DNA of 48,303 nt from Clostridia bacterium. GTDB lineage: Bacteria > Bacillota > Clostridia > UBA1381 > UBA9506. The DNA lies in NCBI GenBank assembly GCA_017935435.1, contig JAGBHP010000045.1:1-48303 (forward strand), written 5' to 3'. Position 1 is the first letter of the stretch, and each line of letters opens with the position of its first letter. The notes under the pieces are model-generated. The model saw only the letters and a list, made by a program, of their open reading frames with translations. It was not told the DNA's origin and did not search any database. Of the stretch, positions 452-36,269 are shown piece by piece. Position numbers and translations under genes: made by a program.

Positions 452-964
452 TTAAGCTTTATATAGCTCTTTAACATAAAAACAATCCTTTTCCCACCGA
501 ATTGCGTTTGTATCTATGTATTCCCATATTTTTTTATAGTCCTTTTCACCGCGTATTATGTGGTCATGGTATGAGGTTTGCCAAAGACGTTTTTTTACGG
601 AATGCATAAATGCATTCCCTACATTTCGGGTTACGCCTGCTTTGAATTTGCCCACAACATTCGGAATATCATATTTCATTGTAGGGAAGGGATTTATCCC
701 TTCCGTTTGAAAAATAGTTATAATCATATGAATATGATTGGGCATAATAACATATTTATCTATTCGTATATTTTGATAATAATTTTGAATTTTTAATACT
801 TCTTGATTTGCAATTTTTCCCAAATCATTCAGTATCATTTTTCCGTCAATTATTTTACCAAACAAAGGCATCTTTTGATGCGTGCACACTGTAATAAAAT
901 ACATGCCTACCGCAGAATAATCATATTCTTTTAGTCTTGTCCTTTTCCTTTTTGGTAAATCCAT
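452..964 (-). CDS. Y1/REP-associated tyrosine transposase (RAYT-like)
   Basis: This is a single-strand transposase of the Y1 (HUH) superfamily, about 170 residues. The start of the protein (PKRKRTRLKEYDYS) and the motifs VIMPNHIHMII (HUH-type metal-binding pair) and YHDHIIRGEKDYKKIWEYI (helix expected to carry the catalytic Tyr) are typical of the small transposases linked to REP palindromes. I chose the ATG at 964, which follows a GAGGTG ribosome binding site and matches the start of the related gene at 17970; ATG 967 is also possible. The coding region contains two perfect palindromes in frame (681-705 and 598-622) that encode the extra peptides TEGINPFPTM and GNAFMHSV, absent from or different in the second copy. 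All family motifs remain, so the gene may be active. Its neighbour is the hairpin array at 223-406. Confidence 0.88.
   Translation of the reverse strand: MDLPKRKRTRLKEYDYSAVGMYFITVCTHQKMPLFGKIIDGKMILNDLGKIANQEVLKIQNYYQNIRIDKYVIMPNHIHMIITIFQTEGINPFPTMKYDIPNVVGKFKAGVTRNVGNAFMHSVKKRLWQTSYHDHIIRGEKDYKKIWEYIDTNAIRWEKDCFYVKELYKA
598..622 (-). repeat. GTAG-type palindrome inside transposase gene
   Basis: A perfect 9-bp inverted repeat (GGAATGCAT - AA - ATGCATTCC, 599-618) is flanked by CTAC. On the minus strand it reads as GTAG followed by the palindrome. It is translated in frame as part of the transposase. The same hairpin, with GTAG and the closing G, recurs at 16607-16631. Confidence 0.85.
681..705 (+). 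repeat. GTAG-type palindrome inside transposase gene
   Basis: GTAG is followed by a perfect 9-bp inverted repeat (GGAAGGGAT - TT - ATCCCTTCC, 685-704). It lies in the transposase gene just after the HUH motif codons. The homologous site of the second transposase (18242-18268) also carries a palindrome ending in CTAC, but with unrelated arms. Confidence 0.85.
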
Positions 965-992
965 CATTTTCACCTCAGGGATTAGTTAAAAT

Positions 993-5163: not shown

Positions 5164-7740
5164 TTAATTTGATATTGCCTGTCTGATTGCGGCCTCTGCT
5201 GCATCTACTTCCTTTTTAAAGTTTTCAGCAGATAGTCTTAGCGCTCCTCCGCCTAAAATAATGAGCTGCTCTAAGCTATCTGACGTCGCAACACGCACCC
5301 TGTTATTTGCACTTAAAACTCTTGAAACCTTTTCAATGTACATATCCGCCGTTTCTGCCTCTTTTGTATAAACCACGTTGATATTATTAATTTTTTCAAC
5401 TGTGCCCGGGTTATTTTTCACCTTATAGGCATCAAAAACGGCAATAAGCTCACATCCTGCAAAGCCCTGATAGTTGCACAAAATATCAATCAGCCTGCCC
5501 CTTGCGCCTTCTAAGTCACTGCGGGCAATGTCTTTTAGCTCGCTCCACGCAAAAATGATGTTATATCCGTCAACCAAAAGGTAATCCTTATCATATTTTT
5601 TAACTTTCGGTGTTTTTTTATATCGTTCGGGAATTTCCACCTCGGTTTTAACCTTTTTCATCGCCGCAAATTCGGGTCTTTTTATTTCCCCGTAGGTACG
5701 CTCAAAAATTGCCATAAGCTCTTTGTCACTCGCCGCTCTTTTTACGTATTCCTCCGCTTTTTTAGCGTTTTCCTGCGCTAAAGCTAAAATTTCATCCTCG
5801 GTCTTAAAGTCCGTTTCTATGTTTGCATAATCCATTACTTCGTCCCACTTAACAGTAAACCCTGCGCCGTGAGCGCAAAAAACAGAATCAGGTGTGTTTT
5901 CAAGGTCACTTTCGGGGTTATATCCGATTTCCTCAATAATTTTTTCGCTGTTTTCGCATTTTTCATAACCCGAAAGCACACAAAAAAGCTTTCCTCTGCC
6001 CGAGGTATAGCTTATTACCTCGCTTTGATAGCTCTGCATCTCGCGAACTGATGCATTTCCCGAAATAACCGCCATATCCCCCGTAATTTCAGGTGACGAA
6101 AAGCGAGCAGACATAAGGCTTAAATCATTTAAGGCTCTGCCCACATTTTCCTGAGGCACGCTTAATTTAAAATCGTATCTCGGCTCTAAAAGCACGCATT
6201 TAGCACGCATAAGTCCCTGACGCACGGCACGGTAAGTTGCCTGACGGAAATCTCCGCCCTCGGTGTGCTTTTTATGCGCTCTGCCTGCAACAAGGCTTAT
6301 TTTCATATCCGTTATCGGTGAGCCTGTTAAAACGCCTACGTGCATTTTTTCCTTTAAATGCGTAAAAATCAGCCTTTGCCAGTTACGGTCTAAGCTATCA
6401 AGCGAACACGTGCTTTCAAATTTTAACCCTGAGCCACGCTCAAGAGGCTCTAAAAGCAGATGTACCTCAGCATAGTGTCTGAGCGGCTCAAAATGCCCGA
6501 TGCCGAGCATTTTTTCTTCTATCGTTTCTTTATAGCTTATTGTTCCCTCACCAAAGCTTACATCTATACCGAATCTGTCCTTTATAAGACTTTTTAAAAT
6601 TTCAAGCTGAACCTCGCCCATAAGGCAAACGCAGATTTCAGCAGTAGCTTCTTTATAAATTACTTTTAAAAGCGGTTCTTCCTCTTCTAAAATCCGTATT
6701 TTTGAAAGTGCATCGGGCGTATTTATTTCTTTTGGGAAAATCACTTTATATGTTAAAACAGGCTCTAAAATCGGACTTACTGCATTTATCTCTTCTCCTA
6801 AGCCTTCACCTGCAAAGGTTTTGGAAAGTCCTGTTACTGCACAAACTGTTCCGCTTTCTGCAATATCTGCCTGCTCAAATTTTTCGCCCGAATATATTCT
6901 TATTCCCGTTACCTTTTCGCTCCATTTTTCGTTTTGACCGCCCGTTATTTCATCACGCACAGATAATTTTCCGCCCGTTATTTTAAGGTGTGTAAGCCTT
7001 GCTCCCTTGCCGTCATCAGAGATTTTATAAACCTTTGCGGCAAATTTCTGCGGATATTTTATCTCTTTGGTATATTTTAAAATTCCGTCTAAAAGAGATT
7101 TCGTTCTGTCGTGCTTTAAGGCAGAGCCAAAAAAGCACGGAAAAAGCTGACGGGAAAATATCGCCTCTTTAATTTCGCCGTCTGTTACCGATGCATTTTC
7201 CAAAAATTCGTTCATAAGACCTTCCGAGCAGAGCGAAAGCTCATCTAAAACTTCTTCCGAAAAATTGTCATTTGAAAAATCTATACAATTATCACTCAGC
7301 TTTTGTTTAAGCTCCGACATAAGCTCTTTTGCATCTTTTTGAGCAATATCCATCTTATTTACGAATATAAACACAGGCACAGAGTATCTTTTAAGCAAGC
7401 TCCAAAGGGTTTCCGTGTGGCTCTGCACTCCGTCGGTTGCGCTTATTACCAAAACGGCATAATCAAGCACCGAGAGCACTCGCTCGGCTTCAGCCGAAAA
7501 ATCCACGTGTCCCGGAGTATCTAAAAGCGTAATTACAGAATTTTCAGCGTGCATTACCGCCTGCTTTGAAAATATTGTAATTCCTCTTTCCCTCTCTAAA
7601 TTAAAAGTATCTAAAAATGCATTTTTATGGTCAACTCTGCCGGGGTTTCTGACCTCTCCCGTAAGATACAAAAGACTTTCAGAAAGTGTTGTTTTTCCTG
7701 AGTCTACGTGAGCTAAAATCCCGAGTGTAATTTTTTTCAT
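5164..7740 (-). CDS. TetM-like translational GTPase fused to Rae1/YacP-type NYN ribonuclease
   Basis: 858 residues. Residues 1 to about 650 are an EF-G/TetM-type translational GTPase: AHVDSGKTT (10-18, G1), DTPGHVDF (74-81, G3), NKMD (128-131, G4), then domains II-V including a TetM-like domain IV (RNWQRLIFTHL, GGDFRQATYRAV). After a basic linker, residues about 716-858 form a complete NYN/YacP domain resembling B. subtilis Rae1: LLVDGYNIIFAW (Asp724), IAVFDAY (Asp770), EAETADMYIEK (Asp799), VRVATSDSLEQ (Asp821). Rae1 is known to cut mRNA in the ribosomal A site. The domain-IV loop that carries SPV in TetM reads AHKKHTEGGDF here, so tetracycline resistance is unlikely. I infer a factor that binds stalled ribosomes through the GTPase and cleaves mRNA or another A-site RNA. 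It stands upstream of addB. Confidence 0.92.
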   Translation of the reverse strand: MKKITLGILAHVDSGKTTLSESLLYLTGEVRNPGRVDHKNAFLDTFNLERERGITIFSKQAVMHAENSVITLLDTPGHVDFSAEAERVLSVLDYAVLVISATDGVQSHTETLWSLLKRYSVPVFIFVNKMDIAQKDAKELMSELKQKLSDNCIDFSNDNFSEEVLDELSLCSEGLMNEFLENASVTDGEIKEAIFSRQLFPCFFGSALKHDRTKSLLDGILKYTKEIKYPQKFAAKVYKISDDGKGARLTHLKITGGKLSVRDEITGGQNEKWSEKVTGIRIYSGEKFEQADIAESGTVCAVTGLSKTFAGEGLGEEINAVSPILEPVLTYKVIFPKEINTPDALSKIRILEEEEPLLKVIYKEATAEICVCLMGEVQLEILKSLIKDRFGIDVSFGEGTISYKETIEEKMLGIGHFEPLRHYAEVHLLLEPLERGSGLKFESTCSLDSLDRNWQRLIFTHLKEKMHVGVLTGSPITDMKISLVAGRAHKKHTEGGDFRQATYRAVRQGLMRAKCVLLEPRYDFKLSVPQENVGRALNDLSLMSARFSSPEITGDMAVISGNASVREMQSYQSEVISYTSGRGKLFCVLSGYEKCENSEKIIEEIGYNPESDLENTPDSVFCAHGAGFTVKWDEVMDYANIETDFKTEDEILALAQENAKKAEEYVKRAASDKELMAIFERTYGEIKRPEFAAMKKVKTEVEIPERYKKTPKVKKYDKDYLLVDGYNIIFAWSELKDIARSDLEGARGRLIDILCNYQGFAGCELIAVFDAYKVKNNPGTVEKINNINVVYTKEAETADMYIEKVSRVLSANNRVRVATSDSLEQLIILGGGALRLSAENFKKEVDAAEAAIRQAISN

Positions 7741-7765
7741 ACTTCACATCCTTTAAAAACAAAAA

Positions 7766-7792
7766 GCGCCGCAAATATTAATTTTGCGGCGC
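7766..7792 (-). terminator. Rho-independent terminator after ECF S-component gene
   Basis: A 10-bp GC-rich stem (GCGCCGCAAA at 7766-7775 with TTTGCGGCGC at 7783-7792) is followed, reading the minus strand, by TTTTTGTTTTT. It separates the ECF gene from the GTPase-nuclease gene, which therefore needs its own promoter in the short gap. Confidence 0.88.
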
Positions 7793-7803: not shown

Positions 7804-8316
7804 TTACATAACCTTGGCAGTTTTTAAAGCCTTGTAAACTACCATTGAAATAGCAAAATCTATCGTGTGATGAATCATCGTAAACACACCGACAGAAAGC
7901 CATACTGCCGAAAAGGCACTGCCGTAAACAGTTGCAACAATTGCCTCAGCCAAGCCATGAAGAACCATGGTTACAGCCCAAACGACAAAAATATTTATCT
8001 TCTTTTTTATCATAAGGCATCCTAAAATCGTAAAAATAATATGTGAAAAGGCACGCATTGCAATAACCGCCGAGCCAAGCCCCAAGAAAAATCCCAAAGC
8101 CGCACCGATTGACGTTGCCACACACACATAAGGGCCCATAAACATTGAAAGAATTGCAGGTAAATGCGATGCAGGTGTTGCAGAAAACGGCTCAATTACA
8201 ATTTTTGGAATTGGCAGCAGCGGAATTACGATAGATAGTGCCGTAAGCATTGCCGCTATCGCCATTGAGCGAATGTTACTCTCACCTTTTACATTTGACC
8301 TTGTTTGAATTTTCAT
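7804..8316 (-). CDS. ECF transporter S component (substrate-binding membrane protein)
   Basis: A 170-residue protein with about five or six hydrophobic segments and a short cytoplasmic N-terminus, the architecture of the S (substrate-specific) subunits of energy-coupling-factor vitamin transporters. The AAMLTALSIVIPLLPIPKIVIEPFS and HLPAILSMFMGPYV stretches are typical of this broad family. The substrate cannot be assigned from sequence; a niacin- or folate-type S component is possible but unproven. No EcfA or EcfT genes are nearby, consistent with a group II system sharing a common energising module. A GGAAGG ribosome binding site precedes the ATG at 8316, and a strong terminator follows the stop. 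Confidence 0.8.
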   Translation of the reverse strand: MKIQTRSNVKGESNIRSMAIAAMLTALSIVIPLLPIPKIVIEPFSATPASHLPAILSMFMGPYVCVATSIGAALGFFLGLGSAVIAMRAFSHIIFTILGCLMIKKKINIFVVWAVTMVLHGLAEAIVATVYGSAFSAVWLSVGVFTMIHHTIDFAISMVVYKALKTAKVM

Positions 8317-8334
8317 AATTTTTCTTCCTTCCTT

Positions 8335-8363
8335 TTGTCACGCTAAGATGCATATTACATAAA
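8335..8363 (+). promoter_or_regulatory. Possible promoter of the small membrane-anchored protein
   Basis: TTGTCA (8335-8340), a 17-bp spacer and CATAAA (8358-8363), or TAAAAT at a 19-bp spacing, lie just upstream of the GAGGTG ribosome binding site at 8371. The match is weak, but it is the only candidate in this short divergent gap. Confidence 0.35.
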
Positions 8364-8382
8364 ATATACCGAGGTGACTTTT

Positions 8383-8715
8383 ATGCTTAATTTCTTTATT
8401 GACTGCATACTTTTGTTTCTTTTGTTTTATGCTTTAGTTTCCATTTCTGAAAAACTATTTGACTTAGCAAGTAAAAATCAAAATTGCAAAATTTCTTATG
8501 CTGTAATTAAACCCTTAGAAAGCGAGGATTTGGAATTTACCTTGCGCAAATCTGCTTCCTTATGCCTGAAAAACGGCTTTCCGCTTGTAATAGTTGATTT
8601 AGGTCTTTCAGATGACGCAAAATACATAATCGACGCACTTTCAAAGGAATTTTCAAATATTTTATTTGTATCGGGTGATGAATTTAGCGCCCAATCGTTT
8701 ATTCAAAAATCTTAG
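8383..8715 (+). CDS. Small membrane-anchored protein of unknown function
   Basis: About 110 residues. A strongly hydrophobic N-terminal segment (FFIDCILLFLLFYALVSI) should be one membrane helix, followed by a soluble cytoplasmic part with alternating beta-type and helical stretches (ISYAVIKPLESEDLEFTLR, FPLVIVDLGLSDDAKYII). I do not recognise the family. The ATG at 8383 sits 6 bp after GAGGTG (8371-8376) and is preferred over GTG 8374, which lies inside that ribosome binding site. It is the only plus-strand gene in the first 12 kb, and its 3' end overlaps the convergent queT gene by 17 bp. Confidence 0.65.
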   Translation: MLNFFIDCILLFLLFYALVSISEKLFDLASKNQNCKISYAVIKPLESEDLEFTLRKSASLCLKNGFPLVIVDLGLSDDAKYIIDALSKEFSNILFVSGDEFSAQSFIQKS

Positions 8716-9166
8716 GATGCTTTTTCATTAAGAAATAAAAAGGTATGCCCAAAGCTACGCACGAAAAAAGCTCGCCCACGCCGACTGTAAGTACATTAAG
8801 TAAAAGAGCAGGACTGTCGGGCACTACAAAATAAAGCATCGGTCCGATTATAAGCGCATTTGAAATAACCGGGCAAAGCGCAGCTAATACCGGCTTACTT
8901 TTAAAATATCTTGTGCCAAGAGCGCCCAATAATGTCGCAAAACTCCCTAAAACCACATCTAAAACTCCAAAGCCGCCCAAAAGGTTTGAAACCAGACACC
9001 CTATGGTAAGACCCCATATCGCAATAGGACTGAATATCGGGAGAATGGTTAATGCCTCAGATACTCTAAGCTGAACAGGGCCAAAGCTAATCGGTGCTAA
9101 AATAAGCGTAAGTGCTGCATATATAGCTGCTAAAATTGCAGCCTTTACCATTTTCTTAGTTGTCAT
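8699..9166 (-). CDS. queT: QueT-family queuosine-precursor ECF S component
   Basis: About 155 residues, five to six membrane segments. KAAILAAIYAALTLILAP and FGPVQLRVSEALTILP are characteristic of the QueT family, S components thought to import a precursor of the tRNA wobble base queuosine. The ATG at 9166 follows GGAAAC and overlaps the last 11 bp of mnmA, so translation is probably coupled. Its place behind mnmA links two different modifications of tRNA position 34. No preQ1 riboswitch is visible, as expected for an internal operon gene. A longer reading frame upstream has no ribosome binding site and duplicates mnmA sequence in another frame. Confidence 0.87.
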   Translation of the reverse strand: MTTKKMVKAAILAAIYAALTLILAPISFGPVQLRVSEALTILPIFSPIAIWGLTIGCLVSNLLGGFGVLDVVLGSFATLLGALGTRYFKSKPVLAALCPVISNALIIGPMLYFVVPDSPALLLNVLTVGVGELFSCVALGIPFYFLMKKHPKIFE

Positions 9167-10214
9167 TTTTTTGTTTCCTTTCCGCCTTTTTAATAATGCC
9201 GCCGCCCAAGAGAATATCCCCGTCATAAAACACAACAGACTGTCCTGCAGTTACTGCTCGAACAGGCTCAAAAAACTCAATTCGTGCCTCATTTTCTCCC
9301 AAAGGTAAAAATTTGCACTCACTTTTTTTTGCGCTATATCTCGTCTTGCACATAAAGCGTGCACCATTTTCAGGAAAAACACCCGACAAAAAGTTTAAAT
9401 TATCTGCTAAAAGTGCCACATAATACTCACTCCCTGCCGGTGATAAAGTAACAGTGTTTTCTTTAGCATCAATTTCCGTCACAAACATCGGTTTTCCAAA
9501 GGTCATTCCCAAACCCTTTCTTTGACCTATCGTAAAGCGGTACGCACCACTGTGCGAGCCGATTTTTTCGCCGTCATCATCTAAAAAATCGCCTGTTTTA
9601 TCGCAAAAACCGCAGTTTTTCTGCAAAAAGCCTATATAATCTCCGTCAGGAATAAAGCAAATATCCTGACTGTCAGGCTTGTTCGCAACAGGAATACCTT
9701 TATCTTTTGCGATTTGTCTAATTTCTTCTTTTGAAAATGCGCTTATCGGGAAAATAGTCCTTTTTAAAATCTCCTGATTGAGATTATAAAGCACATAAGA
9801 CTGGTCTTTTGCTGAATTATCCGCAGTTTTTAAGAAAAATTCGCCATTTTCTTCTACAATTTTTGCATAATGACCGCTTGCAATAAAATCAGCACCGTTT
9901 TCTAAAGCAAAATTCAAAAATGCGCCGAATTTTATTTTTTTATTGCACATAACGCAAGGGTTAGGCGTTCTGCCCGCTTTATATTCTGCGGCGAAATAAT
10001 CGATTATCTCTTTTTTAAAGCTTTCCCTTAAATCTAAAATAAGAAGCTCAATCCCAAGGTGGTCGCAGACTTTTTTTGCATCGGAAGACGTATCTTCATC
10101 GCCAAAGAGCATAAAATACACACCCGTAACGCTAAAGCCTTCATCTAAAAGCAGTGCCGCACTGACGGCAGAATCCACGCCGCCCGAAACTGCTACAAAA
10201 ACCTTCTTTTTCAT
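9156..10214 (-). CDS. mnmA: tRNA 2-thiouridylase MnmA
   Basis: 352 residues, normal for MnmA, which uses persulfide sulfur and ATP to make 2-thiouridine at position 34 of tRNA-Glu, -Gln and -Lys. Seen in sequence: the PP-loop SGGVDSA near the N-terminus, PNPCVMCNKKIKFG with the first catalytic Cys, SGHYAKI, KDQSYVLYNL and SQDICFIPDGDY with the second catalytic Cys, then RFTIGQRKGLG and the C-terminal beta-barrel. Start ATG 10214 lies 2 bp after the iscU stop. The order iscS-iscU-mnmA puts the sulfur donor directly upstream. Confidence 0.95.
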   Translation of the reverse strand: MKKKVFVAVSGGVDSAVSAALLLDEGFSVTGVYFMLFGDEDTSSDAKKVCDHLGIELLILDLRESFKKEIIDYFAAEYKAGRTPNPCVMCNKKIKFGAFLNFALENGADFIASGHYAKIVEENGEFFLKTADNSAKDQSYVLYNLNQEILKRTIFPISAFSKEEIRQIAKDKGIPVANKPDSQDICFIPDGDYIGFLQKNCGFCDKTGDFLDDDGEKIGSHSGAYRFTIGQRKGLGMTFGKPMFVTEIDAKENTVTLSPAGSEYYVALLADNLNFLSGVFPENGARFMCKTRYSAKKSECKFLPLGENEARIEFFEPVRAVTAGQSVVFYDGDILLGGGIIKKAERKQKNDN

Positions 10215-10216
10215 AA

Positions 10217-10648
10217 TTATTCGTGATGTGCCGAGCACGAGCCGCAGCAGCCGTCACATGATTTTTTTTGAAGCGGCTCTTTGCCGAGGCGTTTTAAATA
10301 ATCATTAATTGCAGCGGTGATTGCCTCTTCCGCTAAAACCGAGCAATGAACCTTAGCAGGCGGAAGACCGTCTAAAGCTTCCATAACGGCTTTATTTGTA
10401 AGTGTGAGCGCTTCCTCAACAGTTTTTCCCTTAACCATTTCGGTTGCCATTGAGCTTGTAGCAATTGCCGCACCGCAACCAAAGGTTTTAAACTTGCAGT
10501 CCACAATCACATTATCTTCAATTTTCATATATATCTTCATTATATCTCCGCATTTTGCATTACCAACCTGACCTACTGCATTTGCGTCTTCAATTTCTCC
10601 CACATTTCTCGGATTTGAAAAATGGTCCATTACTTTTTCGCTGTACAT
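10217..10648 (-). CDS. iscU: Iron-sulfur cluster scaffold IscU/NifU N-domain protein
   Basis: 143 residues. The NifU-like N-terminal domain starts YSEKVMDHFSNPRNVGEI and carries the three cluster-binding cysteines in NAKCGDIMKIYM, FKTFGCGAAIATSSM and AKVHCSVLAEEAI. It assembles Fe-S clusters from sulfur delivered by the cysteine desulfurase encoded just upstream. An unusual C-terminal tail (CDGCCGSCSAHHE) adds four cysteines and two histidines and could bind a further metal; similar short tails occur in Clostridia. It lies 21 bp after iscS and directly before mnmA. Confidence 0.94.
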   Translation of the reverse strand: MYSEKVMDHFSNPRNVGEIEDANAVGQVGNAKCGDIMKIYMKIEDNVIVDCKFKTFGCGAAIATSSMATEMVKGKTVEEALTLTNKAVMEALDGLPPAKVHCSVLAEEAITAAINDYLKRLGKEPLQKKSCDGCCGSCSAHHE

Positions 10649-10669
10649 AGTGATTCCTCCCGTTTTAAA

Positions 10670-11827
10670 TTATTTATTTACCTCTTCCCAAAGCGGCGAC
10701 ATCTGTCTTAATCTGTCAACGATTCCGCAGAGTGCCGAAACTGTTTTTTCCATTTCTTCTTCTGTTGTGTTTTCGCTCATTGAAAGGCGAAGTGAGCCGT
10801 GCGCAATTTCGTGCGGAAGCCCGATTGCAAGCAAAACGTGCGACGGGTCAAGCGAGCCTGACGTGCAGGCAGAGCCTGATGATGCCGCAATTCCTGCCAT
10901 ATCAAGTGATAATAAAAGTGCTTCACCTTCAATATACTGAAACGACATATTAATGTTACCTGCAAGTCTGTCGGTTTTATGTCCGTTTAAGCGAACATAA
11001 GGAATTTTTTCCAAAATACTTGCAATTGTTTTATCTCGAAGTTCCGCCATTTTAGCGGTTTTTCCGTTTATATCCTCAGTTGCAAGCTCTATTGCTTTTG
11101 CCATACCCACAATTGATGCAACATTTTCTGTTCCCGCTCTTTTAGTCCTTTCCTGAGCACCGCCGTGGATAAGATTTTCAATATTTATTCCACGTCTTAC
11201 ATATAAAACACCGATTCCCTTAGGTCCGCCGAATTTATGCGCAGACATTGAGAGCATATCTATATTCATTTCTTTTACGTTAATATCCATAAGACCGATT
11301 GCCTGCACTGCGTCTGTATGGAACAAAACGTTATGCTTTTTCGCAATTTCACCGATTTTTTCAATCGGCTCAATTGTGCCGATTTCGTTATTTGCGGTCA
11401 TAATTGTTATAAGACCTGTTTCCTCGGTTATTGCGTTTTCTAAATCGCTAAGACTGATTTTACCGTCAGAATCAACAGGAAGATAGGTAACCTTATAACC
11501 CTTTTTTTCCATAAACTGAAGCGTATGAAGCACCGCATGATGCTCGATAGCTGAGCTTATAATATGAGTTTTTGCAGAGCGTGCCATAACGCCCTTAATT
11601 GCCCAGTTGTCAGACTCTGAGCCACCTGCTGTAAAATAAATTTCGCCAGGGAGTGCGCCTATTCTTTCTGCAATAGTCTTTCTTGCTTCTTCTATTGCGG
11701 CACGACTTTTTCTTCCGATTTCATATATTGAAGATGCGTTACCGTATCCGCCAGTAAGATAAGGCATCATACTGTCTAACACCTCTTTTTTAAGCGGTGC
11801 GGTTGCGCTGTTGTCTAAATATATCAT
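10670..11827 (-). CDS. iscS: Cysteine desulfurase (IscS/NifS)
   Basis: 385 residues, a class V aminotransferase-fold enzyme that takes sulfur from cysteine as an enzyme-bound persulfide. MIYLDNSATAP marks the normal N-terminus. HTDAVQAIG, the PLP-lysine motif SAHKFGGPKGIGVLY, GTENVASIVGMA and the catalytic-Cys loop SSGSACTSGSLDPSHVL are all present. First gene of the iscS-iscU-mnmA-queT operon. A clear promoter lies at 11897-11925. No iscR-type regulator is adjacent. Confidence 0.95.
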   Translation of the reverse strand: MIYLDNSATAPLKKEVLDSMMPYLTGGYGNASSIYEIGRKSRAAIEEARKTIAERIGALPGEIYFTAGGSESDNWAIKGVMARSAKTHIISSAIEHHAVLHTLQFMEKKGYKVTYLPVDSDGKISLSDLENAITEETGLITIMTANNEIGTIEPIEKIGEIAKKHNVLFHTDAVQAIGLMDINVKEMNIDMLSMSAHKFGGPKGIGVLYVRRGINIENLIHGGAQERTKRAGTENVASIVGMAKAIELATEDINGKTAKMAELRDKTIASILEKIPYVRLNGHKTDRLAGNINMSFQYIEGEALLLSLDMAGIAASSGSACTSGSLDPSHVLLAIGLPHEIAHGSLRLSMSENTTEEEMEKTVSALCGIVDRLRQMSPLWEEVNK

Positions 11828-35990: not shown

Positions 35991-35996
35991 CTTTTA

Positions 35997-36269
35997 AAAC
36001 GCTGTGATGCGGAATAGTATGCATTTTTATTTACCTTTAAGAGAGATGTCGGTTGGTGCAAGACATTGGAAATATTTTGCAGAACTCACCGCGGAGCGGT
36101 TGCCGTGAAAATTTAAAGTAGGGGCAAACGGGAACTCCCGTTACAGAGTTAAGATGTGTTGGCATCTAAGGGCACCGTTTCGGTGAAAAAGAGTGGTACC
36201 GCGGAAGGTTAAATTAGGTTTTAACGTTTTCGTCTCTTTGAATTGACAATGAGACGGAAACGTTTTTTT
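35997..36269 (+). promoter_or_regulatory. T-box leader, probably leucine-specific (CUC specifier)
   Basis: Stem I carries AGAGA and GTCGGTTGGTGCAAGAC (36041-36065 region). The specifier-loop segment AGAACTCACC (36081-36090) offers CTC (Leu) at 36085-36087 in the position normally used in T-boxes. The T-box sequence TGGTACCGCGG is at 36194-36204. The terminator is a 14-bp stem AACGTTTTCGTCTC (36223-36236) / GAGACGGAAACGTT (36251-36264) with a T run to 36269. Uncharged tRNA-Leu should turn on the two genes downstream. Confidence 0.88.

Follow-up and report, generated by a model that had tools for sequence, protein, structure and literature searches.

The window analyzed here is a 48,303-nucleotide stretch of DNA from a Clostridia bacterium, and the gene of interest is one reading frame on its reverse strand that opens with an ATG at 7740 and encodes 858 amino acids (Table 1). 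The product joins two complete modules, an EF-G/Tet-fold translational GTPase (aa 4-598) and a Rae1/YacP NYN nuclease domain (aa 719-856). Pfam matched all five EF-G-type domains and NYN_YacP (aa 721-856) in this single frame, with PF05991 reaching 162 bits against a cut-off of 24.6; the EF-G_D2 match for domain II was weak (23.6 bits vs a cut-off of 27) and the domain is present in the structure model. The G motifs with their catalytic histidine, together with domains II-V, place the first module among the translational GTPases of the EF2 superfamily. The motifs AHVDSGKTT, DTPGH (catalytic His, H78) and NKMD are intact in the window protein, as are the NYN residues D724, N727, D770, D799, E803 and D821, and all of these are invariant or nearly so among 109 aligned fused homologues. 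When seven NYN positions were checked in 130 fused frames, only two frames deviated, one of them cut short.

The closest solved structure for aa 1-594 is TetM (3j9y), and that for the NYN domain is B. subtilis YacP/Rae1 (5mq8/5mq9). The AlphaFold2 model (mean pLDDT 87, pTM 0.67) has an EF-G fold, an ordered extension at aa 595-640, helices at 648-670 and 673-683, a disordered stretch at 689-712 and an ordered NYN domain; its Foldseek matches are EF-Gs. Both modules are, by prediction, apparently active. The first-pass annotation of this DNA had described a complete GTPase followed by a complete NYN domain with the Rae1 motifs and acidic residues, and Pfam, the structures and the catalytic residues all agree with that description.

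Table 1. Features of the fusion gene and its upstream region; positions are those of the window and amino acids are numbered in the 858-aa product.
Feature	Position	Strand	Basis
Fusion gene (EF-G/Tet-fold translational GTPase + Rae1/YacP NYN nuclease)	5164..7740	-	ORF, Pfam, kept in 135/393 genomes
G domain, aa 4-225; P-loop AHVDSGKTT, DTPGH78, NKMD	7066..7731	-	PF00009 GTP_EFTU, E 5e-53; invariant columns
Domain II, aa 233-312	6805..7044	-	PF22042 EF-G_D2 below cut-off; structure model
Domain III, aa 327-397	6550..6762	-	PF14492 EFG_III
Domain IV, aa 399-514	6199..6546	-	PF03764 EFG_IV
Domain IV tip loop GRAHKKHTEGGDFR, aa 486-499, where TetM has its P509 loop and EF-G its tip	6244..6285	-	Nearly invariant across the family, fused or unfused; differs from TetM and EF-G
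Domain V, aa 516-598	5947..6195	-	PF00679 EFG_C
Family-specific C-terminal extension of domain V, aa 595-640	5821..5958	-	In fused and unfused members; ordered in model
Conserved short linker motif, aa 672-684, D-x-E-L-x-x-I-F-E-x-T-Y-G	5689..5727	-	Alignment; helix in model
Disordered tether, aa 689-712	5605..5676	-	pLDDT <50
Rae1/YacP NYN nuclease domain, aa 719-858; D724 N727 D770 D799 E803 D821	5167..5586	-	PF05991 E 2e-47; 5mq8/5mq9 match
Probable ribosome-binding site AAAGGATG	7747..7754	-	By reading the sequence
Terminator-like hairpin with T-tract, 26 nt upstream of fusion ATG	7766..7792	-	Sequence

The hairpin upstream of the gene is perfect (GCGCCGCA...TGCGGCGC followed by the T-tract), leaves no room for a promoter between itself and the ATG, and is the only one of its kind in the 1.08 Mb bin. 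At three other loci (L085, L087 and L104), behind an unrelated gene, the fusion is preceded by a similar hairpin at 20-30 nt, and terminator-like hairpins are enriched (20/126 vs 43/731). The genes that precede the hairpin are unrelated, and it turns up as many as three times elsewhere in relatives; attenuation by it is possible. Farther upstream (7804-11827, reverse strand), the genes look on visual inspection like mnmA, transporters of the folT and queT types, and NifU/NifS-type Fe-S genes, a context that is not conserved around other fusions. Even the commonest neighbor family is found at 11 of 77 fusion loci at most, so the addB, folT and tRNA-modification genes near this copy are uninformative and an operon-based function was dropped; nor did any conserved gene neighborhood across the 77 loci link the fusion to rescue. 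Elsewhere the window carries a T-box leader RNA (35995-36240, forward strand, 129 bits) and a REP-associated tyrosine transposase-like gene (452-973, reverse strand) that, at 75 bits, falls just below the NCBIfam cut-off of 80.

The genome sample comprised 393 genomes of the window's class (Clostridia), most of them at least 90% complete. NYN_YacP was found in 250 of these genomes, fused in 135, a set partly assigned from truncated contig-edge frames, and not fused in 115, which are counted as standalone and include a few unresolved contig-edge cases such as G185. The fused genomes fall in 26 families, and 80 named loci, each assembled independently, carry the fusion as well. The first-pass annotation had left it to a domain search whether the fusion was conserved across Clostridia or two genes had been joined by a sequencing error. 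It is conserved, and the numbers of genomes and of independent loci exclude a chance, frameshift or sequencing-error join. Beyond the class, fusions were also found in further families of the same phylum. Named carriers are Ruminococcus flavefaciens, R. bromii and Monoglobus, and Lachnospiraceae carry the GTPase family, fused or unfused. The fusion is chromosomal, with one copy per genome, and was present in 14 of 15 sampled members of one family (f2).

In the NYN tree, the fused domains form one clade (98/94), save two long-branch rows of family f4, and the fusion is judged on this sequence evidence to have arisen once. One genome (G209) carries a standalone 173-aa NYN gene (L030; L233:6790-7308, reverse strand) nested within the fused clade, and an unfused GTPase on another contig. 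This separate NYN gene is likely a secondary split of the fusion, and with both parts present as separate genes in this genome, the fusion is not obligatory.

The architecture had been noticed before. Atkinson 2015 stated in one sentence that the Tet proteins of ten Clostridiales had acquired a YacP-like NYN RNase domain, and suggested an RNase-based resistance mechanism or an rRNA RNase (PMC4342817). Those proteins have the same architecture as ours, with the YacP NYN domain at the C-terminus, and come from Clostridiales; they and the window fusion presumably form the same family, and the earlier impression that the fusion was undescribed has to be given up. At NCBI, the architecture goes by the name “translation factor GTPase family protein.” We found no later paper studying the fusion in the open-access literature. 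As far as we can tell, what is new here is the separate subfamily, the replacement of rae1, the loss of the tail, the unfused sister and the scale of the distribution.

The GTPase module had been labeled a ribosomal-protection protein of the TetM type in the first-pass annotation, a label that the comparisons do not support. Against the NCBIfam tet_protect model (cut-off 775), the window protein scored 412.9 bits, the fused members tested 413-444 and the fused and unfused members tested together 413-468, compared with 877 for a TetM control; the window GTPase fails every NCBIfam Tet cut-off. The EF-G equivalog TIGR00484 gave 302 bits against a cut-off of 659. Phylogenetic trees of the GTPases placed the fused proteins in one clade (SH-aLRT 99; 78 in an earlier tree), with an unfused group of ~650 aa as its sister (84, 94), and TetM/TetO/OtrA and other Tet-like proteins in a separate clade (91) that excludes both the fused and the unfused family. 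This Tet-like clade and the fused/unfused family are sister groups relative to EF-G, which stands apart at 100. In almost every member, fused or unfused, the domain IV tip has the sequence G-x-A-H-x-K-H-T-x-G-G-D-F-R, where TetM/TetO have GLYYSPVSTPADFR and EF-G has GSYHEVDSSEMAFK. In TetM, P509 reportedly occupies the tetracycline site (PMC8161019); it aligns with K491, and a lysine stands at that position in 99% of fused members. Membership among the TetM-type resistance proteins was ruled out by the tet_protect score, the separate clade and K491 in place of P509; the GTPase belongs to a subfamily of its own. A further Clostridia Tet-like clade, with a His-rich GEHHxxHTHPLDF tip (L200, L201, L202, L197), is distinct from both TetM and the fusion family.

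If the Atkinson 2015 suggestion were followed, the protein would protect ribosomes against tetracycline or another A-site antibiotic, the NYN RNase adding a new resistance mechanism that acts on rRNA. The overall fold and the best PDB sequence match, both TetM, would fit such a role, as would the sister position of the Tet-like clade and the “TetM/TetW/TetO/TetS family” label that NCBI gives to some plasmid relatives. We nevertheless consider it improbable, because the scores stay far below those of a real TetM, the P509 position is an almost invariant lysine, the gene is chromosomal, single-copy and nearly universal in f2, unlike mobile resistance genes, and the gene that it replaced is the mRNA-cutting rae1 (see below).

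The unfused sister GTPase, found in Clostridium and relatives, is 42-49% identical to the fused proteins and has the same domain IV tip and C-terminal extension; it differs in being without the NYN domain and in occurring mostly in genomes with a separate Rae1. The extension, absent from TetM/TetO/EF-G, has conserved C595, Y607, D612, S619, F621, C622 and W632; a zinc site was considered there and dropped, as the window protein lacks H596 and H640. The unfused GTPase was found in 26 genomes, 20 of which have a separate Rae1, and one family (f36) dominates, so that a strict Rosetta-stone pairing of the two genes is only partial. Six genomes (L147, L159, L160, L161, L187, L189) carry the unfused GTPase but lack any NYN_YacP gene, so the GTPase must have a role that does not depend on Rae1; Rae1 in turn occurs in many genomes that have no such GTPase. 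An unfused member 48% identical, split over two frames, lies on the Ligilactobacillus salivarius plasmid NZ_CP137609.1 (L168:5001-6919). The unfused GTPase occurs in 32 more L. salivarius plasmid records, and copies in other records are annotated “TetM/TetW/TetO/TetS family” or “translation factor GTPase.” Some members of the family are probably mislabeled as tetracycline-resistance genes.

Several lines of evidence connect the fused nuclease domain to the standalone rae1 gene. Only one of the 135 fused genomes (G284) carries a full-length standalone Rae1 alongside the fusion, compared with an NYN_YacP gene in 115 of the 258 non-fused genomes (Fisher p 7e-25, with genomes that are not independent and uncorrected for phylogeny). 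In two genomes with standalone Rae1, the gene order is cysS-mrnC-(thyX)-rlmB-rae1-sigH. In five fused genomes (G191, G120, G238, G022, G299), the order is mrnC-rlmB-sigH, with rae1 gone from the slot and no second full NYN_YacP match in any of the five. RlmB and SigH were identified by NCBIfam in two of the fused genomes and mrnC by PF00636 in all five, the other slot genes being recognized by eye. The window's own genome bin is 67% complete, too incomplete to establish the absence of a separate rae1. Gene content and gene order indicate that the fusion replaces standalone Rae1, and the empty rlmB-sigH slot in the five genomes argues that the fused NYN domain inherited the only Rae1 job. One could still imagine that the domain acquired a target other than A-site mRNA, such as tRNA, rRNA or a ribosome-associated RNA, making the protein a ribosome-degradation or hibernation factor, given that nucleases of the NYN/PIN group act on several classes of RNA and that an rRNA/tRNA role was once proposed for the NYN domain (PMC4342817). 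With all Rae1 catalytic residues kept and the rae1 gene itself replaced, this is very improbable.

Nearly all fused NYN domains have lost the C-terminal Rae1 motif that contains R166 in B. subtilis, or keep it only in eroded form. All 33 standalone Rae1 frames examined (33/33) end in a tail of 27-31 residues carrying a basic motif, which aligns with the EKWRR stretch of the B. subtilis protein, R166 included. R166P is a loss-of-function rae1 allele, among those recovered as efp suppressors (PMC6613710). The tail with the R166 motif is absent from the window protein; 94 of 130 fused frames have no tail, and in the remainder it is mostly degenerate. A few fused frames (e.g., L078) still resemble the old motif, so erosion of the tail came after the fusion. 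Such a loss would follow if docking had passed to the GTPase. The linker between the modules is variable except for the motif at aa 672-684, in which E674 (1.00), I678 (0.99) and T682 (0.99) are conserved among the 109 aligned fused homologues; this motif, a short helix in the model, is a candidate docking site.

These features bear on whether the two modules work together or are only tethered for convenience. In the latter case, the GTPase would have a translation role of its own (EF-G2-like or as a rescue translocase) while the NYN domain does normal Rae1 work, with no mechanistic coupling. Points in favor of this would be the predicted disorder that separates the modules, the six genomes with the GTPase alone, the many with Rae1 alone, and the separate parts in G209. 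The retention of a single fusion in 26 families, the erosion of Rae1's own tail and the one conserved motif in an otherwise variable linker speak against it and argue for functional dependence of the modules. We regard the absence of coupling as rather unlikely.

Translational GTPases with the EF-G fold, as established for EF-G, TetM and TetO, bind beside the A site and place domain IV in the decoding center. We favor, as reasonably probable, a model where the fusion is a core factor of gut Clostridia, with a GTPase that docks on stalled ribosomes and a Rae1 domain that is thereby delivered to the A-site mRNA and cuts it. The protein would be a chromosomal housekeeping translation factor and not a resistance factor. 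Its EF-G-like GTPase, from a subfamily of its own, would dock in the factor-binding site of a ribosome with the A site free or blocked, and domain IV with its AHxKHTxGGDFR tip would probe the decoding center. The flexibly tethered C-terminal Rae1 nuclease would then cut the A-site mRNA, opening the complex for rescue and decay. Because domain IV and the nuclease cannot share the decoding center at once, the steps would have to be sequential, or the NYN domain would cut from outside; GTP hydrolysis would set the moment at which domain IV leaves and makes way for the NYN domain or, later, a rescue factor. As the last Rae1 of the fused genomes, with its active site kept, the fusion would most economically serve to cleave A-site mRNA; we infer the ribosome binding, the cleavage itself, the part played by GTP and the sequence of events.

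Only a handful of Rae1's mRNA targets are known. A Rae1 welded to a translational GTPase, with its own tail lost, gives a hint as to where and by what the cutter is delivered, and the docking-and-delivery model predicts GTP-dependent A-site cleavage. The family, fused or unfused, is an uncharacterized group of translational GTPases in common gut bacteria. More tentatively, and with some doubt, we propose that the fusion may act as an A-site mRNA endonuclease gated by GTP. It would be the first translational GTPase with an mRNA-cleaving domain of its own, a sensor and cutter of stalled ribosomes in one protein that would have replaced the diffusible Rae1 in much of the gut Clostridia, with the unfused sister as a hitherto unknown Rae1 partner in Clostridium.

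Compared with known systems, the fusion shares with the Tet(M)/Tet(O) ribosomal protection proteins a five-domain EF-G fold, about 31% identity and a sister position relative to EF-G. It differs from them in lacking P509 and the Tet tip loop, in having an extension after domain V, and in being a chromosomal core gene that carries a nuclease and fails the NCBIfam Tet cut-offs. With Rae1/YacP, the ribosome-associated A-site endoribonuclease of B. subtilis, it shares the NYN_YacP domain and the same catalytic residues, and it takes over the job of the rlmB-rae1-sigH slot; unlike Rae1, it has the NYN domain placed after a GTPase, and the window protein and most fused relatives lack the tail that carries the R166 motif. 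SmrB cuts mRNA on the ribosome ahead of rescue. The RelE-type A-site endonuclease toxins resemble the fusion in such a cut on the ribosome ahead of rescue, as a review describes for RelE, but both they and SmrB differ from it in their unrelated folds and in having no GTPase module.
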